This document shows, piece by piece, positions 1-37,406 of a stretch of 55,067 nucleotides of DNA (its first letter is position 1; each line of letters opens with the position of its first letter). The notes beneath the pieces are model-generated. The model did not search any database, was not told where the DNA came from, and was given only the letters and a program-made list of their open reading frames with translations. Source of the DNA: Scytonema sp. UIC 10036 (GTDB lineage Bacteria > Cyanobacteriota > Cyanobacteriia > Cyanobacteriales > Nostocaceae); the NCBI RefSeq assembly GCF_009725235.1, contig NZ_WJFC01000082.1:1-55067 (forward strand), written 5' to 3'. The translations under genes were made by a program, and so were the position numbers.

Positions 1-147
1 TTCCTTAATAGCTTGAATATCTTCTTCATCTTCAGCCTTGCGAATGTTTAACAGTTCTATGACATCTTCTAAAGTGTCCTCATAAGCCTGTTCTAATTTT
101 TCGTAGATTACTTTTAACAACGCTTGTCTTTTAGTTGTGGTTTCCAT
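1..147 (-). CDS. Antitoxin of a RelE-type toxin-antitoxin pair (3' end outside window)
   Basis: The ATG is at 147, preceded by an AAGGAT ribosome-binding sequence. The visible 49 residues are highly charged and Glu/Asp-rich (METTTKRQALLKVIYEKLEQ at the start), as in small antitoxins that pair with RelE. The frame runs off the left edge. The identity comes mainly from the mirrored copy near 10381-10802, where the same reading frame is followed by a recognisable RelE C-terminus, so the toxin gene should lie just left of the window. The role is presumably to neutralise that mRNA interferase and autoregulate the operon. A TATAAT-like box lies at 233-238 on the minus strand. Confidence is moderate because the C-terminus is not visible here. 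Confidence 0.55.
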   Translation of the reverse strand, partial: METTTKRQALLKVIYEKLEQAYEDTLEDVIELLNIRKAEDEEDIQAIKE

Positions 148-302
148 TTTTATATCCTTAATCAAATTTAATACCGAAATTAGCTCCTAAGACCTCTTCT
201 ATTAACTGTTGACTCGTACTTACCCAACAAAGATTATACTATAGTAGATAACCTTTGCATTTCCACGACTGATTCCCCTGTATGCGGCATAATCCACAAT
301 TG

Positions 303-334
303 GATTGCTTGTGTTAAGTCGGGAATGTCCTTAA
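303..334 (+). pseudogene. Orphan C-terminal tip of a haemagglutinin-type exoprotein
   Basis: The last codons read LVLSRECP followed by TAA at 332-334. This is the same ending as haemagglutinin gene 2 (12823) and the fragment at 18234. Nothing of the preceding tail is recognisable, and the sequence immediately after the stop is the interior of a different haemagglutinin copy, so this is a recombination scar. Confidence 0.6.
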
Positions 335-1000
335 AAGCACTCAGCACTATTTTATAATGCCGTTGCGAATCAAGGGGAGATAGTTAACCGTTCGAGGACA
401 AGAACTACAGTACCAGGAACGACTATTGATAGTTCTTCAAACCGTCCGACTTATGGTTTAAATGTTCTTGATGGCAAAAGCCTGTTGTTAGTCGGTGGTG
501 ATGTGCGTTTGGAGAGAGGATTTTTAGGGGCTTTTGGTGGGAGCATTGAATTAGGGGGATTGGCAGAACCAGGAACAGTAGGGCTTTGGGCGAATAATGG
601 TATTTTGAGCTTGAATTTTCCCAAGAACGTAGCACGAGCAGATGTGTCCATTACTGATGCAGCAAGACTAAATGTTCTGGCTGGGAACGGGGGTAGTATT
701 GCAATCAATGCTGCAAATATAAACGTTTCAGGGGATAGTCGGCTATTTGCGGGAATAGATGTGGAGCAGGGTTCGGTTAACAGTCAAGCAGGAGATATTA
801 CCCTCAATGCCACAGGGGCAATTAAAATTAATGAATCGAGTTTAATTATTAATGATGTAAATCGTAATGCTACTGGTAACAGTGGCAATATTAATGTTAT
901 TGCTAACTCCGTATCTTTAACTGATGAAGCTCAACTATCTGCTAGTACTTATGGAAGAGGAAATGCAGGCAGCGTGAAAGTAAGTGCAACAGATTCTGTG
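335..1000 (+). pseudogene. Haemagglutinin gene 1, upstream part (5'-truncated, interrupted)
   Basis: Reads in frame through SALFYNAVANQGEI, then VLDGKSLLLVGGDVRLERG, and then the beta-helix repeats typical of cyanobacterial filamentous-haemagglutinin (two-partner secretion) exoproteins (GDITLNATG, GNAGSVKVSATDSV). It aligns with residues about 190-420 of haemagglutinin 2 (15159-16790), so the signal peptide and most of the TPS secretion domain are missing. The 5' break abuts an orphan tail at 334. The 3' break at codon GTG 998-1000 is caused by the 1821-bp insert; deleting the insert rejoins this frame exactly with 2822-3964. An intact copy would encode a surface-exposed or secreted adhesin-like beta-helix exported by an FhaC/ShlB-type partner, which is not in the window. 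Confidence 0.85.
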
Positions 1001-1104
1001 ATACAGCCACAGTCATTGTGATTATTTTGAGATGATGCTGAATTATTCAGACAGAGTAACAAAAGAATAGAGAAAGTAAAGAGATTAAGAGTATACTTCA
1101 ACAT
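1001..1104 (-). pseudogene. 5' fragment of a secreted-protein gene
   Basis: From the ATG at 1104 the frame reads MLKYTLNLFTFSILLLLCLN followed by NSASSQ. This is a clear signal peptide, followed by a short Cys-containing segment (HNDCGC). It is cut at 1001 by the border with haemagglutinin gene 1, so only about 34 codons remain. Family not recognised. Confidence 0.45.
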
Positions 1105-1224
1105 AATTTTGACTCTATGCATGAAATTTGTAAATGTGCGATCGCTCCAACTCTCTTCTAAAACTACTGTAGAGCGATCGTAGAGAGTACATTTATAGCA
1201 GTTTGTGTTGAATCAAGAACATCC

Positions 1225-1725
1225 TTAATATCTCTCCACTGTAACTGGTTCTGATTCAACAAATCTAATTTGATTGCCAATCTGATAGGTAATAACTGCT
1301 TTTACTTTGTCACTTCCAAGGTAACCCGTCTTATTTGTTAAATAAAAAGGTATCTCAGAATTTTGTAATGGACGTAATGTTATTTCCTTTTGCGAATATG
1401 CAAAATCTTGCAATTGTTCGTCTTTAACGTTAACAATCTTAATACTTAAAATTGTTATTTTAGAATCTTTCTCTACAGTGTTGCTTAAACGGAAAAACAC
1501 ACTAGCAAATCCAATATCTCGATTGGATGTTGGTGGTTGTCCTATTGGTGAGTTTTTTTGTTCTTTGGCTAACAGAGTCACGCTTTGAATTTCTATATTT
1601 TGATTGGGTGATGGTTTCATTGCTTGAGAGACTACAATCGTAGGTAAATTCATGGCTGAAACTGTGTGGGAATAACTTGTTAAAGTTGTGCTAAAAAGTA
1701 TTGCTAGTAGCAGAATTTTATTCAT
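1225..1725 (-). CDS. Small exported protein of unknown function
   Basis: 166 residues from the ATG at 1725; the frame opens at 1749, but this start gives a standard signal peptide (MNKILLLAILFSTTLTSYSH, cleavage near VSA-MN). The mature part is about 140 residues, predicted beta-rich, with no cysteine-rich or catalytic motif I can recognise. It looks like a small immunoglobulin-like exported protein. It lies downstream of the calpain-like gene in the same orientation, inside the insert in haemagglutinin gene 1, so the two could have been co-transcribed at their original location. A diverged mirror copy exists at about 9080-9460. Confidence 0.6.
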   Translation of the reverse strand: MNKILLLAILFSTTLTSYSHTVSAMNLPTIVVSQAMKPSPNQNIEIQSVTLLAKEQKNSPIGQPPTSNRDIGFASVFFRLSNTVEKDSKITILSIKIVNVKDEQLQDFAYSQKEITLRPLQNSEIPFYLTNKTGYLGSDKVKAVITYQIGNQIRFVESEPVTVERY

Positions 1726-1777
1726 AGAGTTTACTTCATTAATTGGCAATGGTTTTCATGACACCTTTGTACTGTGT

Positions 1778-1818
1778 TAGAAACCCAGTTTGTCCAAGAA
1801 ACCGGGTTTCTGGGTTTC
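1778..1818. repeat. Palindromic GAAACC repeat
   Basis: AGAAACCCAG (1778-1787) is the inverse complement of CTGGGTTTCT (1809-1818), with an inner AGAAACC/GGTTTCT pair at 1796-1810. This is a REP-like dispersed palindrome; a sister copy lies near 24937-24972. It sits directly downstream of the calpain-like gene and may end its transcript. Confidence 0.6.
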
Positions 1819-1823
1819 TTAAG

Positions 1824-2821
1824 TTAGGTTGTACGACTCCATCCAGAGAAGTTGGCTTTCAATTCATTAAAAGATATGTCAAAAGTGCCAACATTATAAC
1901 CAGCTACGTCGTCATTCATTCCCCAAGGATTAAAAAGCTTAAATTTCTGAGTAGAGGAGTTATAACCGACAACTACATAAACATGATTAGCTGCAATCCT
2001 AGACTTAGGGTCAATTTGAGAAGCATTAGGATTGGAACTGACACCCATAAGGCTACCACTGTTAAAGGCACTGACCATAGTGTTAAAGTCAAAAGAAGTA
2101 GAACGAGTCGAATTGCGTCCTGTAATATGCTTGACAACTTCGCGATCCCAGCCAAACTCAATACCTTTATAGGAGTTAGTATTATCTCGAACTATCTTTC
2201 CAGATTCATTCCATTGAGCGTAAGCTTTCTCTGCTAGAGCAACCCATAGTTCATTATTTGGATCTGTGAAATGTTTTTTGTTAAACTGTCCTGGTTGGGC
2301 GTAAACAAAATTTCCAGATTTATCTACAGGTAAATATTTATCTACTGTTACGTAGTCAGCAACTCCATTTACGTAGAAGCGGACAGTATAAGTATTGGTA
2401 CTATTGCCATTATCTATGAACATATTTTGAATTGTTTGAGGTGAACGGAAAGCAACTTCACCTAAACCAGCTAAGAAGTAGCAGTCATTAAGATAGCCTT
2501 GATTAATGTCCTGATAGCTCACTCCATTTTGGAACAGAGAACCGTTTGCTTTTTCATATTTGAATTTTTCTTTGGTTTCTGGTTGATCGCTTACTGGACG
2601 ATCGCTACCCAAAAACCATTTACCAACTAATTTTTCCATGTGGTCGCCACTACTACCAGCATATAAGTTCCCTAGACTTTTACCATCATATTTTGCATTG
2701 GCAGCATCACCATTCACAAGTTTATTCGATAAGACGCGAACATGATCTGGCATTTTAAAGTAGCTGGAATTACTCACAATCGTTCTTAAATCTTTCAATT
2801 CCGATAGCTCCTGACTTTGTG
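1824..2821 (-). pseudogene. Calpain-like cysteine protease domain, N-terminally truncated
   Basis: A calpain (peptidase family C2) domain. The catalytic Cys is in GYLNDCYFLAGLGEVA (C135 of the 353-residue frame), the His in NHVYVVVGY (H301) and the Asn in LFNPWGMND (N319), in the usual order and spacing, so the catalytic triad is intact. The open frame extends to 2885, but its first 20 or so residues are antisense haemagglutinin sequence beyond the insert border at 2821. The native protein should continue upstream of SELKDLRTIVS. A protein start with the matching preceding region (DWFSQNLKD...TRSLAAD) lies at 17092-17550. Cyanobacterial relatives are large secreted or surface-associated proteins. 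Whether this fragment is expressed is unknown. A degraded mirror copy spans about 8230-8990. Confidence 0.85.
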
Positions 2822-3964
2822 GAAGTGGGCGGTACATCCGCGAATGCTGACACATACACTCGTTTAACAACAGAAACTTCCGCAAGCGGTGATGCAGGAG
2901 ATTTAAAAATTGATACCAGACAATTACGAATACGTAATGGTGCGTCAGTATCCACAGGTACTTTACTTGACAGTCAAGGAAAAGGAGGTAATTTAGCAGT
3001 CACTGCTACTGATAGCGTACAACTTAGTACCAGAGGTAGCTTAGTCACTCAAACTCTGGGTTCTGGAAATGCAGGAGATTTAACTTTAGAAACAGGGAGT
3101 TTGATAGTTCAAGATGAAGCGTTCATATTCGCTGCTACTTTTAATCAAGGTGTTGGCGGTAATATCCAGCTAAAAGCAAACTCCCTTTCTCTCAACAATC
3201 GGGCTACTATCACAGGTAGCAGTCAAGGACAGGGAAAAGCAGGTAATATCAACATCAACCTCCGCGATAATTTACAAGCCAATAACGGCAACATTACCAC
3301 AGCTGCAACTCAAGCGGGTGGAGGTGATATTTCTATCGCAGCTAAAGATATGTTCCTCAGCAATAACAGTGACATTAGGACTAACTTATCTCGTGGAGGA
3401 GGAAGTGGCGGTAATATATTCCTATCTGCTGACACCATTATTTCCCTGGAAGATAGCGATATTTTTGCTTTTGCTCCTGAAGGCCAAGGCGGTAATATCA
3501 TCTTTAACACTCGTGCTTTCGTAAGTTCTCCTTTGTATCGACCTATACAGACAAGGACTGATGCTGCTACTCTTCAAGCATTAGATGGTAATAATCGTGT
3601 TGATGTGAATGCAAGTGGTATAGTGAGTGGTAGCATTATTGGTGTACCTGACATCACTTTTCTGCAAAATAGCCTCACAGATTTACCAGCTAACATTATT
3701 GACGCTAACGCACTGATTGCTAATAGTTGTATTGCAAGACGCAACAATCGGCAAAACAGTACTTTTCTCATTACAGGAAGTGGTGGTTTACCCGAACGTC
3801 CCGGCGATGCACCCCTTTCTCCCTATATAACTGGAACTATGCAGTCTATAACGACTTCAACCACTTCTCACCGTCCGTGGAAAATAGGAGACCCCATTGT
3901 TGAACCACAAGGTGTGTATAGACTAGAAAATGGGTCTTTGGTAATGAGCCGGGAGTGTCGTTAG
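2822..3964 (+). pseudogene. Haemagglutinin gene 1, downstream part
   Basis: Continues the gene broken at 1000 with TPS-exoprotein beta-helix repeats (GNAGDLTLETGSL, GKAGNININLRDN). It ends with the conserved cyanobacterial haemagglutinin C-terminus: DANALIANSCIARRNNRQ, SGGLPERPGDAPLSPY, WKIGDPIVEPQGVYRLENG and LVMSRECR, then the stop at 3962-3964. Without the insert, the frame 335-3964 would encode roughly 600 residues. As it stands, GTG 2819 is the only plausible local start and gives no signal peptide, so export is not possible. Confidence 0.85.
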
Positions 3965-4112
3965 CGTAGTTTATCAGATATTAGCAGCCGTCCCCAAGGT
4001 GATGTTGCCCCATCACAATGGGAACGCTACGAGCGTTAGTATGGGTGTTGGTTAAGCTTGCTTGCGTAACCTTTCTAAGTTCCGTTTATGCAATTCTGGA
4101 AAGGGAGTACTG

Positions 4113-5660
4113 TTAAAATCTCCACGACCACAATTTTGCTGGGGACCAAGTGATCTGACAAACTATTCCTTTAGGAGAATTAGGAAATCGCTCAAATTGA
4201 CCTCCCAATTGTTTGGCTAAATTCTGCGCTTGCTGTGTTCCAAAACCCGCATATGATATATTGGCGATCGCATTAATTCCCGAACCGTTATCGACTACTC
4301 GAATTGTATTTACACCTGACTCTTGAATACAAATCACTTCAAGTTTAGTTGTTCCTTGAGCGTACTTACCTACATTATGTAATGCTTCTTCCAGAAACCG
4401 ACAAAGGCTTCGCTTATGTTCGAGAGTTAACTTCCGCTCATCCATTTGTTCAAATTTTACGACTTTAATCTTAACAGTTTTAAAACAAGGATAGTCCCTG
4501 TCCACAACCTCGTTATAAATTTCGTGAAGAATTTCGTGAAGTGGTTGTTGCAAATTCAATTGTTGTTCTTTTCCCAAGTGTAAACTACTGACCTCAGTCA
4601 AAGCTTCTTTTTTAACTAACTCATATACACTGCGAAGTTCTTGATTCAGTTGCTGCATCTCTGACAAAAATTGTTGAGGAGCCAATCCTTCTTTGCTTTG
4701 AATTTTTCGTAATGTTATGCTAAGGGTCTGCAATGGCTGACTGTGGATAGTGTCGAAGATGTGGTCAATAACTAACTGACGGTCTTTAATACGCGATCGC
4801 AAAGCTTCATCGTATCTTTCAAAAGATGCCAATACAGAACCATTCAATACCAAAGCCAAGAAAGCTGGTACAACTGGAATCCACCAACCGATAACCAGTA
4901 ACCCATAACATATTCCAATCAAGCAGAAACTCGCGAAGAGAACAAGAAGAAGAATTTTCCAAGGAGAATGGATAATTCGTCCCAGGCTAATGCCTAATAT
5001 ACCCCAAGCCACAATCCAAACATACTCCCATACATCAGACCAAACATTGAGCATTGGTCGCCCATCAAGCACAGCACTAGTTATTTGGCTGACCATATGC
5101 GCTTGCATCTCAACTCCATAATTCAAAGCAGGATTTTCAATATTTGTTGCTGATGAATTTGCATAATCTTTAACACTTGAAGTCATCATACCTATTAACA
5201 CTATTTTGCCACTAATCCTATCTGATTCGACTGTTCCCTTGTAGATGTCATCTAACGAAACAATGTTAAAAGGGTTCTGTCTGTTACGAAAATTAATAAG
5301 TATCTGACTGCCACCTGTATCCGCTCTTACATAACCACCAGAATTAGGATGAATCCTTCTAATTTTAGTAGAAGCAAACCTAATGCTATAAGGATCGTCA
5401 ATTACATTATCCGGTTCAATTCCTTTTTTTGATAAATAATGTTTTACCAATTGAAGAGAAAAAGAAAATCGCCATTTATTCTGAAGATTTGCTGTCACTA
5501 GTAAATTTCGTCTTTGCTTCCCATCTGTATCTATAATACTATCAGTAAAACCTATTTTTTCTTGAGATACACCAGGAGGAGCATTGACGATAAAACCACT
5601 GCGATCGGGTAAAACTTTTTCAACAACAATTAAGTTTTTTGTTTTTTTCAAAGTTTCCAA
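4113..5660 (-). CDS. CHASE2-domain sensor histidine kinase, N-terminally truncated
   Basis: 515 residues. The N-terminal about 180 residues are the C-terminal half of a CHASE2 extracytoplasmic sensor (GFTDSIIDTDGKQRRNLLV, SGKIVLIGMMTSSVKDYANS). Three hydrophobic segments follow, roughly residues 205-285. The kinase core has a NarX/DesK-like phosphoacceptor region (FDTIHSQPLQTL), an N-box (FLEEALHNVGKYAQGTTKLEV) and a G1-box (VVDNGSGI). Full CHASE2 proteins start about 130-150 residues earlier with a membrane anchor, which is missing. A 1-nt shift just upstream of the ATG would extend the frame (EIMLSGYKEFLETL), and the palindrome centre lies only 120 bp away, so the truncation probably reflects the fold-back junction. 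The family usually partners with response regulators; none is nearby. Confidence 0.8.
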   Translation of the reverse strand: METLKKTKNLIVVEKVLPDRSGFIVNAPPGVSQEKIGFTDSIIDTDGKQRRNLLVTANLQNKWRFSFSLQLVKHYLSKKGIEPDNVIDDPYSIRFASTKIRRIHPNSGGYVRADTGGSQILINFRNRQNPFNIVSLDDIYKGTVESDRISGKIVLIGMMTSSVKDYANSSATNIENPALNYGVEMQAHMVSQITSAVLDGRPMLNVWSDVWEYVWIVAWGILGISLGRIIHSPWKILLLVLFASFCLIGICYGLLVIGWWIPVVPAFLALVLNGSVLASFERYDEALRSRIKDRQLVIDHIFDTIHSQPLQTLSITLRKIQSKEGLAPQQFLSEMQQLNQELRSVYELVKKEALTEVSSLHLGKEQQLNLQQPLHEILHEIYNEVVDRDYPCFKTVKIKVVKFEQMDERKLTLEHKRSLCRFLEEALHNVGKYAQGTTKLEVICIQESGVNTIRVVDNGSGINAIANISYAGFGTQQAQNLAKQLGGQFERFPNSPKGIVCQITWSPAKLWSWRF

Positions 5661-5710
5661 AAATTCTTATACCCGCTCAACATAATCTCTAAAGATTCAA
5701 CAAATTACGT

Positions 5711-5853
5711 AGTTTATAATTTGGATTTTTTTGTTAAGCGGTAACTCGCCAGAGCGGATATAGACGATTTCTTCATTCTGATGAGAATAAAGAAATCGTC
5801 TGTATCCGCTCTGGCGAGTTACCGCTTAACAAAAAAATCCAAATTTAAACTAC
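5711..5853. repeat. Centre of a giant palindrome
   Basis: Near-perfect inverted repeat with its symmetry point at about 5781-5782. GCGGTAACTCGCCAGAGCGG on the left is matched by CCGCTCTGGCGAGTTACCGC on the right, and the loop is only about 4 nt (GATG, flanked by ATTCT and AGAAT). The first 60-70 bases right of the centre match almost perfectly, then small differences accumulate. Confidence 0.9.
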
Positions 5854-8800
5854 GTAATTGGTTGAATCTTAGAGATTATGTTGGCGGGTATAAGAATTTG
5901 GAAACTTTGAAAAAACAAAAGTAATGTGTTGAAAAATTTTCCGATCGCAGTGTTTATGCAATGCTCTCCTGTGTATCTCAGAAAAATAGGTTTTACTGAT
6001 AATTATAGATACAGATGGGAAGCAGAAAATTGATCGGGAGAGAAAATTCAAATAATGGCATTTCTTTTTTCTTCAATAGGTAAAATTATTATCAAAAAGG
6101 AATTGCCGATAATAATTGAAGACGTAAGCATAGGTTGTTTAATAAAATTAAAGATTATCCTAATCTGGGTTACACTTAGTATAATTCGTAACGACAGAAC
6201 CCTTTTACATTGTTCGTTGATAAATCTACAAGGAAAGTCGATCAATAGGATTAGTGGCAAAATAGTGTTAATAGTATTTTGATTCAAGTGTTAAATTTGC
6301 AAAGGAAGAATATTGAAAATCCTCTTTAATGGATTAGTGAGATGCAGCAATGTCACCCATAACTATGCTGGCTTGATGGGCACCAATCTCAATTTTGTCT
6401 AGTATGGGAGTAGTTTTGGCATAGCCTGGGACGAATTATCATTTCTTGAAATTTCTTCTTGTCTTTCGCAGTTTTCTATTGAAATGTTATGGTTACGTTA
6501 CGGTTGTGATTCAGTTTACAGCTTTTTGGCTTGGTATTGAATTTTGTATTGGCATCATTTGAAAAGATAGAGAGTTTCGATCGCGTATTAAAGACGTCAG
6601 TTAGTTATTGACCAATTCGACACTTCACATCAGCCATTGCGACCTTAGCTAACTACGAAAAATTGAACAAAAAGTAGGTCCTCAAATTTTTCAGAGATAG
6701 CACTGAATCAAACTTCCAGTGTATAAGTTATTGAGAGAGTATGAGGTCAGTATTACACCTGTAAGAGAACAACATTGAATTGCAACAACCTTCACGAATT
6801 CTCACGAATTATAACGAGTTTGGACAGGGATATCTTGTTTTAAACTGTAAGATTAAAGTCTAAATTTGAACAATGGATGAGCGGAAGTTAATCTCGACTA
6901 AGAAGCATTTGTCGGTTTCTGTGAGGAGAGTACTAATTGGAATACGCTCAAGGAAACTAAACTGAAGTAATTTATATCAAAGTATTTAAATTTCAATTTT
7001 TCTTAATGTGTGATAACGGTCGGGGAATTATTATATCGGTTGAAACAGCAGGCGAGAATTTAGCCAACATGGGAGGGAATTGACATTTCTAATTCCTGAA
7101 GGAATGTTGTCAGATCCTTGGTCCAGCAAATTGTGTCGTGAGATTTTAAAGTACGGACCTTTCCAAATTCATAACGAACTTAAAGGTTTACGCAAAAGCT
7201 TAACAACACATCTAACGTCGAGCTCCATGTGATGGGGAACATCACCTTGAACGCGCTAATTCTGATAAACTACGCTAGACCTCGGCTCATTACCAAAACC
7301 ATTTTCTTCTATACACACCTGTGTTCAACAATGGTCTTTTTTCCACGGAGTAGAGTGGTGATGTTATAGACTGCTGTTCGTTATATGGGAGAAAGGGGCA
7401 TCGCGGACGTGGGGTAAACCCACTCCTTTAATGAGAAATACGTTTGCCGTTGGTTGCGTCTTGCAATAAACTATTGCAATCAGTGGTAGCTCATAAGTTA
7501 TGGGTAAATCGTGAGGAGGAGAAAAGAGGTCATACACAAAATGCTACCACTCCTAACGACTGAGCAGAATAACAGATTGTGATTAATGCTTGAGAGTAGC
7601 ACATAAGTCTGTTGTATAGTCGATACAAAGAGAACTTACTAAACACAGTGTTAAAGATATATAACGTTTGGTTCAGGAGCAAAGCAAAAATTGCTATCTC
7701 CAGGAAATAATGGTCGCAGATAGAATTATCGAAGCATTCTCGGGCACAATAAGTTTAGATCTAATGTTTTATTGCTGAAAAATATTTTACTCATAGAACT
7801 CACCTGACATTGCAGCGTGTAAATAGGGGTTATGCTTGTAAAATTCCGGAGTTGATTTGATATTACTTGTTTTCCTGTCTTGCTGCTCCGGATGTAGCCG
7901 ATGTTCCTTTAGCTATTATAATCCAACCTGATTAAAGTACAGGATTGAACGTTATATTGAACTATCAACTCCTGTTTCTAAGTTAAATCTCCTGCATTCC
8001 AAACCAGATTGAGTGACTAACTACCTTGGGAAGTGTACGCTAGCAGTAGCCTAACCTCCTTTTCCTTGATCATCAATAAAGTACTGTTACTGGGGCAGTT
8101 ATATTGTATGTCTGTATCAATTTTTAAATTCTGCACACGTTGCGGAGTTTCTGTGTTAAACGAGTGTATTGTCAGATTCGCGATACCCACTCTCAGGGCT
8201 GAATAATTTAAGACGTGTGAGAATTCGCTACTTTAAATGCCGATAATGTTCGCGGTCTTATCGAATAAACTTAAATGTGATCTCCAATGCAAAATAGATT
8301 AAAGTCTAGGAACTTATATGCTGGTAAATGGCACCACAGGAAAATTAGTGTAATGTTTTGGGTACATTCGCAGTAACGATCAACGAAACAAAAAAATTCA
8401 AATGAAAAGCAAACGGTTCTGTTCCAAATGAGTGAGCTATAGGAAATAACAAGTATCTTATGATGTACTTCTTACTGTTAGGTGAAGTGCTTTCCGTCAC
8501 CTCAACATTCAAATATTTCATAGAAATGGAATATACAATACTATACTGTTTCTACGTAAATGAGTTCGATAGTAACAGTAGCATAAAGGTGTGTGTCTGG
8601 AAATTTTGTTTCGCAACAGGACATTTACAAAAAACATTCGAGTATGGGATGCTCTAGCCGAGAAAGCTTAGCTAATGGATAATCGGAAAGATAGTTGAGA
8701 TAATATAACTCCATTAAAGTATTGATTTGCTGGATCGCGAGTTGTCAACATATACAGACGCATTCGACTCTTCTACTTCTTTGACGTAAACTATGTCAGT

Positions 8801-10690
8801 GCTTTAGAGTGTGCTATGGGATGGTGTGAAATTGACCTAAGTTAGGATTGCAGCAATATTTTTTGTAGTGCGTTTTATAATCTTACCAGAAATTAAGCTT
8901 TAATCTTTGGGGAATTAGGACGTAGTGTTATAAGTTGGCACTTTGACATAAGGTTTTGTTGAAAGCCAACTTCTTGGATGGAGTTTCTTTCTTTTTTTTT
9001 TTGATAACCCAGAATGGTTCTGACAACTGTTGCGAACACCGTAAAGTGTATAGAAACCATTGCATTAATGAAGTAAACCTATGATAAATTCTGCTACTAA
9101 TACTTTTTAGCACAATTTAACAAGTTATTCCACACAGTTCGGGGCATGAGTTAGTGGTGAAGTCTTCAGCAATGAACCATACCAATCAAAATATAGAAAT
9201 CAAGCGGACTCGTAGCCAAGAACAAAAAAATCACCATAGACAACAACAACACCAATGAGATATTGATTGCAGTGTGTTTTTCGCCGGTAAGAAATTCTAA
9301 AATAAAAATTTTAGTTTAAGATTGTTAAGTAAAGACGAGACAGCGAGCCATTACAAAATTTGAGATACTTTTTATTTAAAATAAAACGGTACTTGAGTGA
9401 ACAAGTAAAAGCATTATACCTATCAGTTGGCAATCAATTAGATTTTTGAATGAACATAAGTGAGAGATATGAAGGATTTCTGATTCAAACAAATGTTATA
9501 AATGTACTTCTCATCGCTCTACCGTAGATTTAAAAGAAGTTGGAGCGATCGCACATTACAATTCATGCTAGAGTCAAATTATGTTGAATATACTCTTATC
9601 TTTATTTCTCTATTCTTTTGTTCTATAATTCTGGGCTCAATTCAAATAATAACAATGATGTGTGTAACACAGAATCTGTTGCCTTATTAACGCTGCTCAT
9701 TCCTCTCCAAAGTACTAGCAAAGTAGCTTCATCAGTTAAGATACGGAGTAGCAATAACATTAATATTGCCACTGTTACCAGTAGCATCATTTAATCATAA
9801 TATTAAACTGAATTCATAATTTAATTGCAGCTGTGCATTGAGGGTATATCTCTGACTTGACTTTACCGCACATGCTTCAATCATCCGCAATAGCGACATA
9901 CCTGACGTTTATTTTCAGCATTGTTGCATACTACCGACGTTCCACCAGAAATTTAGCTTGCTCATAATGACACATTGTCGTGCTACTTATTGGAAAAATT
10001 CAGCTCAATCATTATTCGCCAAGCCTATTATGGTTCTGCAATCCTAATTCAATCTCCCCAAAACCCTAAAATCTTCTCCAAAGCACATCACACGCTAACA
10101 ACAGTTTTGCCATCAATAATTTAAAGAGATAATGACGGTTTAAGAACTACAATATCTTCCTGTATGATTCTTGTCTCGACGGTACATCTCCTTGATTCGC
10201 ACGGCTTAAAAATAGTGCTGGTCTTTAGGACATCCGACTTAAACAAGCATCCAATGGATTATGCAGCAACAGGGAATCATCGTGGAAATCAGTATCTCTA
10301 TAGTATATCTTGTGGTAAGTACGATCAACAGTAATAGAAAGTTTAGAGCTAATTTCGTATAAATTTATTAGGATATAAAAATGGAAACACAACTAAAAAA
10401 GCAGGTGTTAAAGTAACTACGAAAAATTAGAACAGGCTATGAGCACCTTTAGAAGATGTATGAACTGTAAACTTAGCAAGGCTGAAGATGAGAAGATATT
10501 CAGCTATTAGGAAGCTAAAAATGTACTATATAGTGAAGAATTAAGCGAGATAGATCGTGACCTATAGATGAGTGAGAGTGAGGTGGAAGCAATTAAAAAA
10601 GCTACAACAAGATATTAGAATAGATTACAAAAAATTATAAACTATTTGAAATCCTCGTCAAATGGGTTGTAAGCTAGAAGGAGAATGATA
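5782..10690. repeat. Degraded mirror copy of 1-5781 (probable unpolished fold-back)
   Basis: The whole stretch aligns to the reverse complement of the left part of the window. About 5900-7230 is the CHASE2 kinase, 7270-8190 the haemagglutinin 1 downstream part, 8230-8990 the calpain-like domain, 9080-9460 the small exported protein, 9500-10240 the haemagglutinin 1 upstream part, and 10381-10513 the antitoxin. Position 1 pairs with about 10513, so 5781 bases correspond to only about 4732, with net loss by many 1-3 base deletions plus scattered insertions and substitutions. Changes fall equally in coding and non-coding sequence. Every frame is destroyed and short ORFs here are accidental. Errors persist to about 10686 and then stop. 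This is consistent with raw single-molecule read errors; a decayed real duplication is the alternative. Confidence 0.85.
10381..10545 (+). pseudogene. Degraded copy of the antitoxin gene
   Basis: Begins ATGGAAACACAACT and follows the antitoxin at 1-147 with repeated small deletions. It extends a little past what the left edge shows (SEEL, SEID segments), so it reveals part of the antitoxin C-terminus outside the window. Not a functional frame as written. Confidence 0.7.
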
Positions 10691-10802
10691 CTTTCGGATT
10701 CGCGTGGGTAACTATCGCGTTTTATACGATATTTTTGATGACGTTTTAATAATATCAGTTGTAAGAGTTGGACATCGTAGGGAAGTTTATAAGGATGAAT
10801 AA
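10640..10802 (+). pseudogene. RelE-type toxin, C-terminal part
   Basis: From about 10690 the frame is clean: FRIRVGNYRVLYDI, then RVGHRREVYKDE and TAA at 10800-10802, a classic RelE mRNA-interferase C-terminus. Upstream (10650-10690), the expected PNGCKKLEGE segment is present only with several missing bases, so the toxin N-terminus is unreadable. It lies directly after the degraded antitoxin, giving the usual antitoxin-toxin order. If the noisy stretch is a sequencing artefact, the real toxin gene could be intact. Confidence 0.75.
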
Positions 10803-11314: not shown

Positions 11315-11486
11315 GCGCTACAAAATTTTGGCAATGGAAGCGCTTAACTAAGAAACTGGTGCAATAAGAACCCAGAAAATGTCACAGCGATGTTTGCTGG
11401 CTAGAATAGCTATTTCAGATTTGTGTGTACACCGTAGCCTTTATAGGGGGGAGATCCATTGCGTGAAATCCTTATAATATAGATAT

Positions 11487-11690
11487 AGCCCGCATAGCAC
11501 CAGTAGAAAAAGGTTCGAGTGGTGCATCGCCCGGTCGTTCTGGTAAACCACCACCTCCTGTAATCAAGAAAGTACCACTTTGTCTGTTATTGCGTCTAGC
11601 AATGCAGCTATTAGCGGCTCTTCAGTACTTGTTAGTTTAGCATAACAAGTACTGAAGAACCCTATTAGCAATGAGTGCATTTTTTTACTA
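11487..11690 (-). pseudogene. Orphan haemagglutinin C-terminal fragment
   Basis: On the minus strand it reads SCIARRNNRQSGTFLITGG, then GLPERPGDAPLEPFSTGAMR, nearly identical at the nucleotide level to the copy at 18234-18506. The final WKIGDP...SREC part is missing below about 11487, and the upstream side ends at about 11680. A 46-bp palindromic element is inserted in the ALIANS codons. Confidence 0.8.
11608..11669. mobile_element. 46-bp palindromic mini-element with perfect 8-bp target duplication
   Basis: The element is 11616-11661. It starts GGCTCTTCAGTACTTGTTA and ends with the inverse complement GGTTCTTCAGTACTTGTTA, one mismatch in 19. It is flanked by CTATTAGC at 11608-11615 and 11662-11669. 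The uninterrupted sequence GCAGCTATTAGCAATGAG is present in haemagglutinin gene 2 near 13077-13094, proving the insertion. The 8-bp duplication and GG-ended inverted repeats suggest a deletion derivative mobilised by an ISL3-like transposase (inference). Confidence 0.85.
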
Positions 11691-12203
11691 TATTTTACTT
11701 GTCGCACTTGCCTTGTTCTTATCCCATTTTTCTATAACTTTCTTGACGTGTTCTATTTCTTCAAAGTCTACACGTACAGTGGCATTTTCAAATTCTACAC
11801 CTAACACAGTACTAACTTCTAATATTTCCACAAAGCTAGCACATTGGTAGTCACTATCTTCATAATCTTTAACCCTTTGTACCTCAATACCTAATAATTC
11901 TGCTAGTTGTTGATGTGAGAGTGAAGCTGCTATCCTGGCTTTTACTAATGCATCTGGTAGTTTATTCAATGATTCGACTTTTATTTGAATAGACTTGCTT
12001 TTATCACAATTAATTAATCTTTCATACTCTGCTATTTCTTGCTTAAACTCGTCAACTTGGCTTTGGTATGCATCGTGATATAGCTGCCATTTTACTGGGT
12101 CTGCTTTTAAACTCTCATTACTATCAATTTCGGTTACTGATTTTTCAAACTTCTGTAACCATTCTTTGGTTGTATTATATTGCTGTTCGCTTTTAATTAT
12201 CAC
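11688..12203 (-). CDS. HTH-domain protein, candidate antitoxin or regulator of the upstream gene
   Basis: About 171 residues. The N-terminal half is helical and charged (EWLQKFEKSVTEIDSNESLK). The middle holds a Cro/C1-type helix-turn-helix (LPDALVKARIAASLSHQQLA followed by ELLGIEVQRVKDYE). The tail is acidic then basic. Start chosen at GTG 12203 because it overlaps the upstream TGA (GTGA) and has GAGGTG six bases before it; the frame is open to another GTG at 12212. The tight coupling to the nucleotidyltransferase-like gene suggests a two-gene toxin-antitoxin-like unit in which this DNA-binding protein is the regulator or antitoxin. Function inferred from architecture only. Confidence 0.65.
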   Translation of the reverse strand: MIIKSEQQYNTTKEWLQKFEKSVTEIDSNESLKADPVKWQLYHDAYQSQVDEFKQEIAEYERLINCDKSKSIQIKVESLNKLPDALVKARIAASLSHQQLAELLGIEVQRVKDYEDSDYQCASFVEILEVSTVLGVEFENATVRVDFEEIEHVKKVIEKWDKNKASATSKI

Positions 12204-12652
12204 GGTGCCCACCTCGTTAAATCTATTGCTATAATTCCTTTAGAGGTATCGTTTCTAGTATCGAATTGAAAAAAATCTATATATGATGTTCCAGTGTCAT
12301 TGGCCGGATAATTAGCTGGAAAGATTTCACCCTTATATCTAGCTTTTTGTTGTATACGTTGTAATGAAAAGTTATATATAGTAGGTGCTAATAATTTTAA
12401 TTCATAAGCATTAACTCCGCTTTCCTCCCAGCAGCAATCAAAATCACCAGGTGTTGGTTTACTTGATGTAAAACTACCATCTATGTAAATTATACTACAT
12501 CCTGCCTCTTGTAACTCTTGCATTGCCATTTCCAAGCCTGCTATTAACAGTACACGACGCCTATTGTAACCAAATCGTTCTTTAAACTCCTCCCATTCAC
12601 AAACATACACCCCTGGTGGTAAATTACCGTTTTCATCGAATTCGGGAATCAT
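12200..12652 (-). CDS. DUF6932-like protein with nucleotidyltransferase-type motif
   Basis: About 150 residues from ATG 12652 (MIPEFDENGNLPPGVY); the open frame extends six codons further. It carries a helix (RRVLLIAGLEMAMQELQEAG) and then IYIDGSFTSSKPTPGDFD, which resembles the GS...DxD motif of minimal nucleotidyltransferases; GSF and DFD would be the metal- and nucleotide-binding positions. The start NLPPGVY...WEEF is typical of the uncharacterised DUF6932 family, which I recognise from memory only. It is translationally coupled to an HTH gene, a pattern seen in nucleotidyltransferase-type toxin-antitoxin pairs. The enzymatic role is inference. Confidence 0.6.
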   Translation of the reverse strand: MIPEFDENGNLPPGVYVCEWEEFKERFGYNRRRVLLIAGLEMAMQELQEAGCSIIYIDGSFTSSKPTPGDFDCCWEESGVNAYELKLLAPTIYNFSLQRIQQKARYKGEIFPANYPANDTGTSYIDFFQFDTRNDTSKGIIAIDLTRWAP

Positions 12653-12822
12653 TAACTCACACCATAACAAATATCTTAATTATCTGCTACTAAGGTGAAT
12701 ATTTACGAAAAGTCGGGTTGCGATCGCAGCCGAAAACTAGCTTTACCGCACTCAGTTAAATGGTTCTACTGCTGGAGTGATTCTCTCTTCAGAGCAACAG
12801 TTGCGCTTGCAAAGCCGTAAGT

Positions 12823-15800
12823 TTAAGGACATTCTCGACTTAACACCAGTTTCCCATTTGCCAGTTGGTAAAAACCTTGCGGTTCAATAATAGGGTCACC
12901 AATTTTCCATGTCCGGCTTTGATTTGTTGTCGTAGGTGACTCATTTTCTATAGGTACAGATCGCATTGTTCCAGTTACATAAGGTGACAGAAGTGCATTG
13001 CCCGGTCGTTCTGGTAAACCACCACCTCCTGTAATCAAGAAAGTACCACTTTGTCTGTTGTTGCGTCTGGCAATGCAGCTATTAGCAATGAGTGCATTGG
13101 TATCAATAATGTTTTCCGGAAGTTGGTTGAGGCTGTTACGAAGAGAACTGGTGTCAGGTGAATTAATATTTGTCACACCAGCAACGCCTAACTCAGAACT
13201 CGCTGTGATATCGCTTCTGTTTGTATCTCTCGATCGCACTTCAATACCAAAGATCCCTTGGGAATTAATCTGGACTTGACCACCAGCACCTGTATATGCA
13301 TTTGCTGTGAGATCGCTGTCTTCTTCAGGAACAGCAACAATATACTTTGAGTTGACATTAATATTACCGCCATTACCGCCTTTAAGCTCCGTACCAGCGT
13401 TGGTAGAAATCTGGCTGTTACGACGTAGGAGTAATAAGTCACTGACTTGCAGTGCAATATTACCACCATCACCGGATGCAGAAGAAGCGATGAATCTTCC
13501 TTGGTTGTCTAAAGTCACTTTGGGCGAGATAACTTCAATATCGCCCGCGCTACCTGAACTTGAGGAGAGGACAAAAAAGCCACTGGTAGCGCCAATATTA
13601 CTTATAGTTCCTGGGAATTTGGCAAGTCGGTCATTGAAAGTCACATCGCTACCATTAACGATCGCTTGGTCAGTGGCATTAACTGTTATTTTACCAGCGC
13701 TTCCCTCACCTGAAGTTGTGGCGATTAGTTGACCTCCATTAAGCGCTTCAAAAAGACTGGTATTGATTGTAATATCACCACCATTCCTATTATTACTGGT
13801 TCTTGCATTAAACACAGCACCATTTGATATACGCAAGACATTTGTATTTACGGTGATATCGCCGCCTTTACCTGTAGAATTATTTGTTGTGGATGTTAAT
13901 AAACCGCTAGAAAATTCTCCTGTTGAAGTAGTACCAGAAACGCTAACATCATTGAAAGTACTAATTTGAATATTTCCTGCATTCCCTTGTCCGTTTGTGC
14001 GAGCACTCAGTCGAGCACCATTAGTAAGTGATAGCGAATTTGTGGTAAGACGGATATCACCACCCTGACCGATACCTGTATTCTCTACACTGCTTCCAAC
14101 GAGACTACTGCCATCCAAGAAGACTTGCTCTTTAGCATTAATAATGACATTGCCTGCATTTCCCTGTCCAGAAGTGCTGGAATTTAATATGGAGTTATTG
14201 ATTAGTGAAAGCTTACCAGTAGAGAAATAAATGTCGCCGCCCTTACCGATACCTGTACTCCCTACACTGCTTGCGACAACACTTCTGTTATCTAGAGAGA
14301 CTTGCTCGCGAGCCTCAATAATGACATTGCCTGCATTTCCTTTTTTATTGGTGTTAGAAGTAATTACGGAACCATTGCTAAAAAGAGTCTCAGTGTTGAT
14401 ACGGATATCTCCACCATTTCCTGTACCTGTGTTGAACACATTACTGAAAACAGAACTTTGCCCATCAAGAGATACACGCTGTTTTGCATTCATTGATGTT
14501 GATACTGCCTGCATCTCCTGTTATACTCGTAGTGCTTTGCACAACAGTTTCTCTAAGTGAGAGTGAATCAGAGAAGATACTAATATTACCACCTTTTCCT
14601 TTATCAAGTGTGCCACTGTTGATATTACTTGTGTCAAAGGTAATGCCATCACGAACATTAAAAATTACATTACCTGCATTTCCCTCTCCACTCGTACTAT
14701 TTGCTACAGTAGTTTCCTTCATGGATAGGAAATTAGAGGTGATATTGATATCACCGCCTTTTCCTCTAGTACTTGAGTCGCTGGTAATGACACTGTCATT
14801 AAAGGAAATTTTGTCACGGACATTGATAATTAAACTACCTGCGTCCCCTTCTCCACCTGTACTGGTATCCAGAGAAGTTTCAGTAGCTGAAAGTGAGCCA
14901 CTGTTAATGCGGATATTTCCACCCCTGTCCTTAGCGGAGATATTACTTCTGGTGGAGACATTACTCCTATTAAATGTGATGTCGTTAAGAGCATCAATAA
15001 TGATATTACCTGCCTTCCCTTCTCCATTTGTACCCGTATTTAAATAAGCGTTGGTAGCTGAGAGTGAGCCAGTGCTGATGCGAATGTCTCCACCGTTTCC
15101 TCTAGCATCTTCTTCCACATTACTGAAGATGTTTGCATCTTCGTCAATAAAATCATCATCAAAGTAAAAGCGACCTCCGTCTAATACAATGCGATAAGCT
15201 GGGTACAGCTTGCGCTTCGCGAACGCTTACATTAATAATCACACTGCCTGCATCTCCTTGTCCGCTAGTACTGGTACTTAATTTAGCGCCATTAGTTACG
15301 GAAAGAAAACGAGTGTTAATGCGGATATCTCCTCCCTTACCAATGCCTCCTTGTCCAATTTCACTTAAAGCATTACTCCTGTCAAACGAAACACTGTCAC
15401 GGGCATCTACAATTATACTGCCTGTATCTCCTTGTCCATTAGTACTGGTACTTAATTTAGCTTCATTTTTCACCAGTAACGAGCCAGTGGTAATTCGGAT
15501 GTCTCCAGCTTTTCCTTTGTTATCTAAAATTTGTGATGCATCACTCATGACAGAACCACCATCAATGACAATGCGATCGCGAGCATCGATTGTCATACTG
15601 CCAGCATTTCCCTCTCCATAAGCGCTGGTAATTAGTTCACTGTTATTACTTAATATAAGAGAACCCGTTTTGATACGGATATTGCCACTGTTACCAGTAG
15701 CTAGAGGATTCACACTATTGAGAATCTGACTTCCCTGCTCTACTTTGATTTGTTCGGTGGCATTGAGAGTAATATCTCCCGCTTGACTATCAGTTGTCCT

Positions 15801-16790
15801 GCTTCTTGAAGTGATTCCGGCGCGGAGGGAAGTGAATTCCGAAACATCGATATTTCGAGCGTCGATCGCAATATCACCGCCTCCAGTAGATGCCACATTC
15901 ACTCTAGCGAAAGTACCGAAAAATACATCTGCTCGTTGAATTGTATCGGGAAAATTTAAACTGAGGATGTTGCCATCTACATTAAGTCCAACTATTCCAG
16001 GGCTAGTCAAGCCTCCCAACTCAACTCTTCCACCAGGAGCCTGTAAAGTCCCAAGCCGTTCAAAGCGTATATCGCCGCCTACTAACAACAAACTTTTACC
16101 ATCAAGAACCTGCAACCCACTAAATTGACGATTGGGAGAACCATTGATAACCGTTCCTAGTCTTGTTGCTCTCGAACCGTTGGTAATTTGCGACTGATTA
16201 ACAATGGCATTATACAACAGTGCAGAAGGGTTGACCGTTAGTAGACTACTAGATTGGGGCTGCGTTGCACTAAAAAATCCTGTCTCACCTAGTTGCACTG
16301 CATTGGCTGTTGTTGCGACAAAAGAACCACCAACATCTAAACTTGCATTTGCTCCAAATATAATCCCGTTGGGATTAATCAGAAATAAGTTAGGTTGAGA
16401 GGAGCCAAAAGTACCGAGTCTACCCAAAATAGACGAGGAGTTACTACCTGTCACTCTTGCCAGAATATTTTGAATACTAGCATCAGGACTCAAGAAGTAT
16501 GCTCCTCGTCCCGCGCTGACATTAAATTCACGAAAACTGTGAAATAGGTTAATTCCACGAACAGCGCCACCCGTAATCGCGCTGGCTCCGCTAGGCAATC
16601 CCTGATAGTTGGTTATAACAACAGAAGATTCTGCACCGAGAGTGTTATCTGGCACAATGTTACTCTGAGCCAGAACATTTTTGGGACTTGTAAGTATTTC
16701 AAACAATGCTATATCGAACGCTACTAACAATCCCACAAATACTGCAAATTCTAACGGTAAGCACCTACGGAACGATTGTCTTAGTGTCAT
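12823..16790 (-). pseudogene. Haemagglutinin gene 2 (TPS exoprotein), two frameshifts
   Basis: Three consecutive frames, 16790-15159, 15118-14465 and 14514-12823, make one exoprotein of about 1,300 residues. The N-terminus has a signal peptide (residues about 1-42, ending VLAQS) and a filamentous-haemagglutinin TPS domain with NLFLINPNGIIFGANASLDV, then VLDGKSLLLVGGDIRFERL. Beta-helix repeats (GNAGxVIINAxxxVSLDG, GKGGDIxISTxSLSL) follow, and the conserved C-terminal tail ends LVLSRECP. The first frameshift coincides with a 36-bp dispersed hairpin repeat at 15191-15226. The second, at about 14490-14500, is a tandem 4-bp duplication (AATGAATG on the minus strand), after which GSINI-NAKQRVSLDG would resume. 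Intact relatives are secreted through an FhaC/ShlB partner; none is encoded here. The gene has a complete start and the longest N-terminus of the haemagglutinin copies in the window. Confidence 0.85.
15191..15226. repeat. Small dispersed hairpin repeat disrupting haemagglutinin 2
   Basis: On the minus strand the core is GCGCAAGCTGTACCCAGCTT followed by ATCGC; AAGCTG-TACC-CAGCTT forms a perfect 6-bp stem. It is preceded by GCGTTCGCGAA. A second copy is at 54295-54319. It interrupts the haemagglutinin frame exactly where the first frameshift occurs. Confidence 0.75.
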
Positions 16791-17091: not shown

Positions 17092-17580
17092 ATGTCTTTA
17101 AACTACACGATTCATCTACTAGATTTAGCGGAAAATTCTGGTATTGGTTCCAGTGATGGAGTATCCAGAAGTTTAGTAAGTCTATCCGAGCCAAACGATG
17201 TATTCTTCTCCATTTTTAGCGATCGCAGTCATTCTAACTTGATGTTGAATCATTCTTACTTCGAGCCTGAAATATTATCAGACAACTATCATTCTGAAAA
17301 TATAATTGAGTGGGATAGGGATATTACGGGTTTTCAAGAAGGTACAACTCAATCTAGTTCAAACACTTGGGATATTGATACCTACTTCAATCAAGTTGAG
17401 ATATTTGGTTACGAAAATAGTTCTCATGTTAATCTAGTGAGTTCAGGAAGTAGTTCCACTACAACAAGCGATTGGTTTAGCCAGAATTTAAAAGACCAGC
17501 AAATTCTTACCAAAACGCGCTCTCTGGCTGCTGATTGTTTATCTAGAAAATCATGCTGCTGCAAAAGCCTTGTTACCTAA
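17092..17580 (+). pseudogene. N-terminal part of a calpain-like protein, truncated
   Basis: 162 residues starting MSLNYTIHLLDLAENSGIGS, acidic and Ser-rich without a signal peptide. Residues about 126-150 (DWFSQNLKDQQILTKTRSLA followed by AD) match the segment that in cyanobacterial calpain-like proteins directly precedes the SELKDLRTIVS region and the protease domain. That protease domain is absent here; the homology ends at about 17550. A matching protease domain lacking this N-terminus is at 1824-2821. In another frame, 17545-17642 reads ENHAAAKALLPNIHALISQA then NNACSGIVFYG and a stop, apparently the tail of an unrelated gene fused here by deletion. Confidence 0.6.
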
Positions 17581-18233: not shown

Positions 18234-18506
18234 TTAAGGACATTCTCGACTTAACACCAGTTTCCCATTTGCCAGTTGGTACAAGCCTTGTGGTTCAACA
18301 ATAGGGTCACCAAGAGTCCACGGACGGTTTTGGTTTGTTGTCACAAGTGACTCATTTTCTCTAGATACAGCTCGCATAGCACCAGTAGAAAAAGGTTCGA
18401 GTGGTGCATCACCCGGTCGTTCGGGTAAGCCACCACCTCCTGTAATCAAGAAAGTACCACCTTGCTCGTTGTTGCGTCTTGCTATACAACTGTTTGCGAG
18501 TAGAGC
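18234..18506 (-). pseudogene. Orphan haemagglutinin C-terminal tail
   Basis: Encodes CIARRNN, GTFLITGGGGLPERPGDAP, LEPFSTGAMRAVSREN, WTLGDPIVEPQGLYQLANGK and LVLSRECP then a stop. It is nearly identical in DNA sequence to the ends at 12829-13080 and 11487-11600. Homology stops abruptly at about 18506. There is no start of its own for an exported product. Confidence 0.8.
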
Positions 18507-18701
18507 GATCTTCTCCCAAGCCTAATTGCCATGCTAGATTAATTACGTAAAGACTATAGAATTGCAATCCACTGTAATATAGCTTTGGCAATATACAGTA
18601 GATTATAACGAGTGTAAAGTATAAATGGGCGCTCCGGCCCCTTGTACTTCGTTTGTTGGAAAAATGCTGTGTGTATTTCACTCTAAATACGAGGAATAAG
18701 C

Positions 18702-19223: not shown

Positions 19224-19330
19224 TAAAGACACTCTCGACTCATCACTAGCTGTCCATTTTCCAGTCGATACACCCCAGTTGGTTCTATAATCGGGTCACC
19301 AATTTTCCATTGATAGGAATTGTTTGTAGA
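19224..19330 (-). pseudogene. Orphan haemagglutinin C-terminal tip
   Basis: On the minus strand it reads YQWKIGDPIIEPTGVYRLEN, GQLVMSREC and a stop near 19224. It is more diverged from the others and is the shortest recognisable tail copy that still includes the WKIGDP motif. The next about 320 bases up to the DUF928 gene contain no supported gene. Confidence 0.7.
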
Positions 19331-36878: not shown

Positions 36879-37406
36879 TTGGTCTATCGAGAGCGTATCA
36901 TTCATGCTTTCCCGGATTTGATGGAACAACTCTTAACAGAAAGCGATGCAAAAATTCAGTCATTAAAAAGCAAAATATTAGATGTTGTAGGGGAAAGTGG
37001 ACAAGTAATTATTGAAGTCATACCCGAATTAGAACGAATTCTTGGTCAACAACCACTAAATCAAGTATTCATGAATATTTTAGCTAATGCCATTGATGCT
37101 TTAGAAGAATCCAATAGTGGACGGAGTTTTACAGAAATTGAAGCACATCCTAACAGAATTACTGTGAAAACTTTCCGCAAAGATAATCAAGCTAAAATTC
37201 TTATTGCTGATAATGGTAAGGGAATGAGCGCGGAAGTTATACAGAAAATATTTGACCATTTATTTACAACCAAAGGAGTCGGTAAAGGGACGGGTTTGGG
37301 ATTGGCTATAGCAAGACAAATTGTTGAAGAAACCCATAGTGGCAAGTTGAGTTGTAATTCAGTTCTAGGTGAGGGAACAGAGTTCTTGATTGAAATTCCA
37401 ATCTGA
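36879..37406 (+). pseudogene. Chimeric remnant of a multidomain AAA/GAF/histidine kinase
   Basis: The first about 55 residues (MVYRERIIHAFPDLMEQLLT...EVIPELERILGQQP) match the AAA-ATPase-like middle of very large cyanobacterial Ser/Thr-kinase-histidine-kinase proteins. The remainder jumps directly to the HATPase domain: LNQVFMNILANAIDALEE (N-box), ILIADNGKGM (G1), GVGKGTGLGLAIARQI (G2). The central 1,000 or so residues, including the phosphoacceptor His, are missing. An in-frame internal deletion explains this. The frame is open but cannot be a functional kinase. Confidence 0.7.

Follow-up and report, generated by a model that had tools for sequence, protein, structure and literature searches.

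The first 10.7 kb of contig NZ_WJFC01000082.1 from Scytonema sp. UIC 10036 form a giant palindrome: gene after gene is repeated in mirror order around a single fold. We studied this palindrome within a window of 55,067 nucleotides (nt), the whole stretch of DNA analysed, which appears to be the complete 55,067-base contig, two proteins encoded in it (P0001 and P0121) being catalogued with a longest contig of that length; position 1 would then be a contig end, with the fold lying near it. We conclude with high confidence that these 10.7 kb represent a single segment of DNA that was written twice, in corrected form on the left and as a raw, error-filled mirror image on the right, through an assembly artefact near the end of the contig. 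The giant palindrome is very probably not a biological feature.

Geometry of the mirror and its error spectrum

When the first 12 kb were compared by blastn with the minus strand of the window, positions 1-5781 proved to be mirrored by 5782-10513 in a single match that joins position 1 to 10513 (11,586 columns, 76% identity, 5,150 bits); when the first 10,690 bases were resampled 20 times with a first-order Markov model, the top inverted match scored 42.5 bits. An earlier reading of this DNA (hereafter the original prediction) had placed the fold at 5782, paired position 1 with about 10513 and described the right arm as 18% shorter, and all of this stands: the left arm has 5,781 nt and the right arm 4,732 nt, a shortfall of 18.1%. 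Identity between the arms is flat, at 72-81% of columns in ten 500-nt bins from 500 to 5499, a profile with which the outermost two 500-nt bins are not comparable. The closest protein relatives that serve as yardsticks below are P0122 (637 residues, 86% identical to the CHASE2 kinase encoded in the left arm) and P0002 (69% identical to the calpain-family protease). The parts of the mirrored region are as follows.

1-5656: left arm, clean and presumably corrected; mirror of 10513 to about 5900, with the CHASE2 frame intact against P0122 save for one 3-nt gap
5657-5781: end of the left arm, presumably uncorrected; CHASE2 front region lacking about 29 nt at several spots (frame-tolerant alignment to P0122)
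5718-5845: fold centre; 62-nt arms, 97% complementary, with 4 nt between them and the same lesions on both
5782-10513: right arm; deletion-rich mirror of 1-5781, apparently raw
10514-10691: noise past the mirror of position 1, including a ParE-like gene front; its end was set by eye from the frames
10692-10799 (+): last, clean stretch of a ParE-type toxin gene whose start apparently lies in the noise (Pfam PF05016, matched over positions 58-89 of 89; E 3.9e-7)

The differences between the arms are mostly bases absent from the right one. In a global alignment, 4,542 matches are accompanied by 145 mismatches (35 transitions, 110 transversions), 37 insertion events in the right arm (45 nt) and 728 deletion events (1,094 nt), 698 of which are 1-3 nt long, in agreement with the dominance of 1-3 base deletions originally described. 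The counts of insertions and deletions (indels) and of mismatches vary with the scoring, but indel events outnumber mismatches in all three scorings applied (765 versus 145; 1235 gap openings versus 610; 512 versus 314). The mismatches are distributed over codon positions 1, 2 and 3 as 43, 44 and 32, with no third-position excess, and the deletion rate rises slightly over the same positions (0.192, 0.200, 0.206); the absence of codon-position bias that had been claimed is thus borne out for mismatches and only approximately for deletions. The lengths of 25 of 726 deletions are divisible by three, in a count that begins at a slightly later alignment column. We also considered errors driven by homopolymers, and ruled these out in view of a deletion rate that is not raised in runs.

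Among natural paralogues of this contig the pattern is reversed: substitutions outnumber indels. The longer of two haemagglutinin pairs differs by 185 mismatches (106 transitions) and 23 indel events, six of them multiples of three, and the second pair by 85 mismatches (45 transitions) and three indel events; these pairs are imperfect controls, possibly being partly under selection. A decaying true duplication would be expected to differ mainly by substitutions, whereas the arms differ by 765 indel events against 145 mismatches. The error spectrum, the codon positions and the paralogue controls together favour uncorrected long-read noise over evolutionary decay, as had been proposed, and the same three lines of evidence support the warning that any gene call within 5.8-10.7 kb would be spurious.

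Lesions at the fold and the border near 10690

The region around the fold provides a second kind of evidence. In a frame-tolerant alignment to P0122 the left arm is intact from residue 125 onward, one 3-nt gap excepted, whereas the right arm is noisy already at the first codons past the fold, with 6-36 nt missing from every one of 21 full 25-codon bins. In the left arm, damage to the CHASE2 gene is restricted to the 125 nt or so nearest the fold; an anchored alignment finds some 29 nt missing there: 17 in residues 72-93 of P0122 and 12 in residues 94-125, as counted from the anchored path. The good reading frames attributed to the left arm are therefore present up to about 5656, and absent from the last 125 nt or so before the fold. 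Natural length variation is small here: among the 114 homologues that cover residues 72-125 (out of 118, P0122 excluded, taken from the best 120 of 868 matches), 105 have the same length over these residues and nine are one residue shorter, and over residues 94-125 all 114 are equal in length. Judging from these sequences, part of the 17-nt loss in residues 72-93 could be natural, up to about one codon, which would account neither for the whole loss nor for the broken frames.

Comparison of arm with arm reveals how this damage is shared. Within 60 nt of the fold the arms differ by three mismatches and no indels; over the next 60 nt, one mismatch and three deleted nt; over the following 280 nt, nine mismatches and 47 deleted nt. 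Near the fold, then, the lesions are common to both arms, and farther out the right arm alone is damaged. Lesions common to both central arms imply that the same raw letters underlie both arms there, the left having been corrected later; this suggests that one raw sequence gave rise to both arms and that later correction touched the left arm alone, fading near the fold. Shared central lesions are not expected from separate sequencing passes, nor from separate decay. With 5651-5900 as query, blastn returned, besides the segment itself and its mirror, two weak matches in the window (E 0.39) and none in the other loci compared. This result, and the fact that the left side of the centre is damaged CHASE2 coding sequence, led us to reject a further idea suggested by the 97% likeness of the 62-nt arms, namely that the centre is a natural hairpin or a small mobile element.

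Another observation comes from the far end of the right arm. The noise runs some 177 nt beyond 10513, the mirror of position 1, and stops near 10690, inside the toxin gene, so that the claim of clean sequence only after about 10690 holds. The toxin domain is clean from profile position 58; as judged by eye, fragments resembling the front of a ParE toxin lie in differing frames of the noise. The ParE-type toxin gene thus appears to cross the border between noise and clean sequence. Because the gene appears to span 10690, the noisy right arm would be the one in its proper place: the clean part of the contig seems truly to adjoin it, and the left arm to be a surplus, misplaced copy. Positions 1-5656 would accordingly be a clean copy that is both misplaced and wrongly oriented with respect to the remaining contig. 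On the chromosome, the front of CHASE2 that the contig lacks presumably follows past the fold. Two elements are thereby added to the original prediction: the lesions common to both arms at the centre, and the identification of the clean arm as the misplaced one.

A proposed route and its competitors

We hypothesize the following sequence of events. A raw long-read stretch, with the richness in deletions described for nanopore reads through inverted duplicates, would have been written and followed by its own reverse complement; either a fold-back read or, within the assembly graph, an overlap of the stretch with itself would have brought this about. One arm, the left, would then have been cleaned by consensus correction, which would have faded over the last 125 nt or so next to the fold, a zone in which clipping of read alignments is to be expected; the right arm would have stayed raw up to the unique sequence near 10690. 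One-sided correction of this kind would be the cause of the asymmetry between the arms.

Several points weigh against this reading. Platform, coverage and polishing are deduced from the contig, not from reads. For the right arm to have escaped correction by long reads that span 10690, either low coverage or short-read correction is needed. The number of nucleotides missing from the left arm near the fold depends on the method, being 20 in a local alignment and 29 in the anchored one. Indels had been said to strike coding and non-coding DNA alike, which is only roughly so: the deletion rate is 0.158 in the 906 non-coding nt and about 0.20 (0.192-0.206) in coding sequence, a difference that we cannot explain. 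Homopolymer-linked deletions are a commonly described nanopore pattern, and the right arm does not follow it: its deletion rate is 0.19 in runs of 1-4 and 0.12-0.14 in longer ones. A low rate in homopolymers may match fast translocation of the strand.

The most serious competitor belongs to the same class of artefact as the doubly written stretch with one-sided correction. In a plain fold-back read, a hairpin molecule would have been read on both strands, with a good first pass and a fast, deletion-rich second pass left uncorrected, and the arms would be separate passes; we regard this as possible, though unlikely. The closest parallel to the noise, for this reading and for our own alike, is provided by Spealman et al. 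(2020, PMC7229812): nanopore reads that lose quality and miss bases at the junctions of inverted duplicates; the length of the noisy part correlates with that of the good part and is consistently shorter, after which quality recovers, and pairing beyond the pore, which pulls the strand faster, is proposed as the cause. The contig resembles those reads in that its noise begins at the junction, bases are missed (728 deletion versus 37 insertion events), and the noisy part is shorter and recovers abruptly at its partner's end. The lengths correspond roughly, the 177-nt overhang requiring that bases were trimmed at the contig start. The resemblance fails at the first arm, which in such reads is normal up to the junction, whereas here some 29 nt are missing from roughly the last 125 nt before it. 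Moreover, the text of PMC7229812 concerns reads of real duplications, whereas our material is an assembled contig whose centre has lesions common to both arms.

Fold-back artefact reads also occur in long-read data according to the relevant text of Heinz et al. (2026, PMC12870357), where they are described for Oxford Nanopore Technologies and PacBio and where tangles in the assembly graph are warned of. The forward and reverse strands of these reads are joined head to head near the middle, as are our arms; the description is at the level of reads, and here we have the assembled result alone. It is the central 60 nt that tell against a plain fold-back: lesions common to both arms are unexpected from separate passes. 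The long-read fold-back of the original prediction is therefore upheld as artefactual noise, and not in its plain two-pass form.

An inverted chimera produced by whole-genome amplification and then sequenced with long reads is improbable. Amplification palindromes are on record (Warris et al. 2018, PMC6218980) and, as far as that account goes, are likewise artificial inverted repeats in long, error-rich reads; unlike them, the contig has one fold and offers no evidence of amplification, and an amplification palindrome alone would leave the one-sided noise unexplained. Among the titles listed in literature searches, none pointed to a case closer than these three.

More improbable still is that the palindrome is real and only its letters are wrong, namely a recent, near-perfect inverted duplication of about 5-6 kb whose second arm was misread by nanopore. 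Similar noise is reported, in the part of PMC7229812 that bears on it, at true inverted duplicates in yeast; at normal coverage, however, reads entering from the right would yield a clean right arm. Nor was a comparable inverted duplication found in any of 17 CHASE2 loci of other genomes, all from distant relatives and eight of them spanning only 3.7-4.9 kb, which makes this weak evidence: the top inverted self-match in these loci is at most 361 columns, and eight of the 17 have none at E <= 1e-10. Of 386 genomes searched, 24 gave a match at E <= 1e-150, the best being 61% identical. Pseudogene decay of the right arm of a true duplication is hardly credible and was rejected on the error spectrum, codon positions and natural control pairs: the genes are mirrored in order, broken genes (a split calpain, haemagglutinin pieces) exist elsewhere in the contig, and the shared central lesions could in principle be older than the duplication, but there are about 20 deletion events per insertion event, indels far exceed substitutions, transversions exceed transitions, the rate is flat along the arm with abrupt ends, the left-arm CHASE2 damage is confined to the vicinity of the fold, and the natural paralogues show the reverse (maybe partly selected, yet with only six of the longer pair's 23 indels in multiples of three).

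Mirrored genes, their surroundings and consequences

The order of genes on the left arm, read away from the fold, recurs on the right one.

4113-5660 (-): CHASE2-domain sensor kinase, front missing (Pfam PF05226; 86% identical to P0122); mirror 7149-5900
2819-3964 (+): TPS-type haemagglutinin, C-terminal piece, similar to 12824-13168; mirror 8193-7275
1824-2885 (-): calpain-family protease, C-terminal piece (Pfam PF00648; matches P0002 residues 175-491); mirror 8994-8140
1225-1749 (-): predicted exported protein, a label carried over from the original prediction (open reading frame); mirror 9473-9060
485-1021 (+): TPS-type haemagglutinin, inner piece (341-977 similar to 16226-15593); mirror 10101-9650
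1-165 (-): open frame cut by the contig start, by its position a possible antitoxin of the ParE pair

The mirrored order that had been proposed is confirmed for the CHASE2, haemagglutinin, calpain and exported-protein genes, and the label 'antitoxin' has no Pfam family behind it: the 55-residue frame at 1-165 has one Pfam match only, far under the cut-off. Neither the exported protein (1225-1749) nor the left-arm haemagglutinin pieces (2819-3964, 485-1021) have a Pfam match of their own; the latter are named through similarity to 12823-16790, which bears a TPS domain at its front. Such haemagglutinin pieces are scattered, on partly opposite strands, at 341-977, 2819-3964, 11484-11615, 12823-16790, 18235-18507 and 19224-19329, and the main copy (12823-16790) is split in frame around 15118-15159.

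The calpain-family gene is present in two non-overlapping pieces: 17092-17535 (+) matches P0002 residues 1-151 (85%), and 2804-1830 (-) matches residues 175-491 (69%), the latter recurring in the right arm at about 8.2-9.0 kb (+). Read through the right arm, the C-terminal part sits upstream of the N-terminal part; the pieces are either one broken gene or two truncated copies. Only 15 nt separate the calpain match from the end of one C-terminal haemagglutinin piece. In the 17 loci of more distant relatives, eight of them only 3.7-4.9 kb long, the neighbourhood of CHASE2 gave no calpain match. The genes for P0122 and P0002 perhaps share one 47,240-base contig, and the named close protein relatives include Brasilonema, Scytonema, Calothrix and Nostoc.

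Farther along, 11688-12670 (-) encodes a DUF6932 protein adjoining a weak helix-turn-helix protein (HTH_3, under the cut-off), perhaps a toxin-antitoxin-like pair, and a short frame at 36879-37406 (+) carries a histidine-kinase ATPase domain from which the other parts of a sensor kinase seem to be missing. A plasmid source was considered and rejected: 10800-35000 gave just one 35-nt match across 72,556 plasmid records.

For annotation of this genome, the doubly written stretch means that genes called in 1-5.7 kb would stand wrongly oriented beside the remaining contig. It also offers a candidate screen that needs no reads: a deletion-dominated mirror near a contig end, combined with lesions common to both arms at the centre only, may flag assemblies of the same kind.

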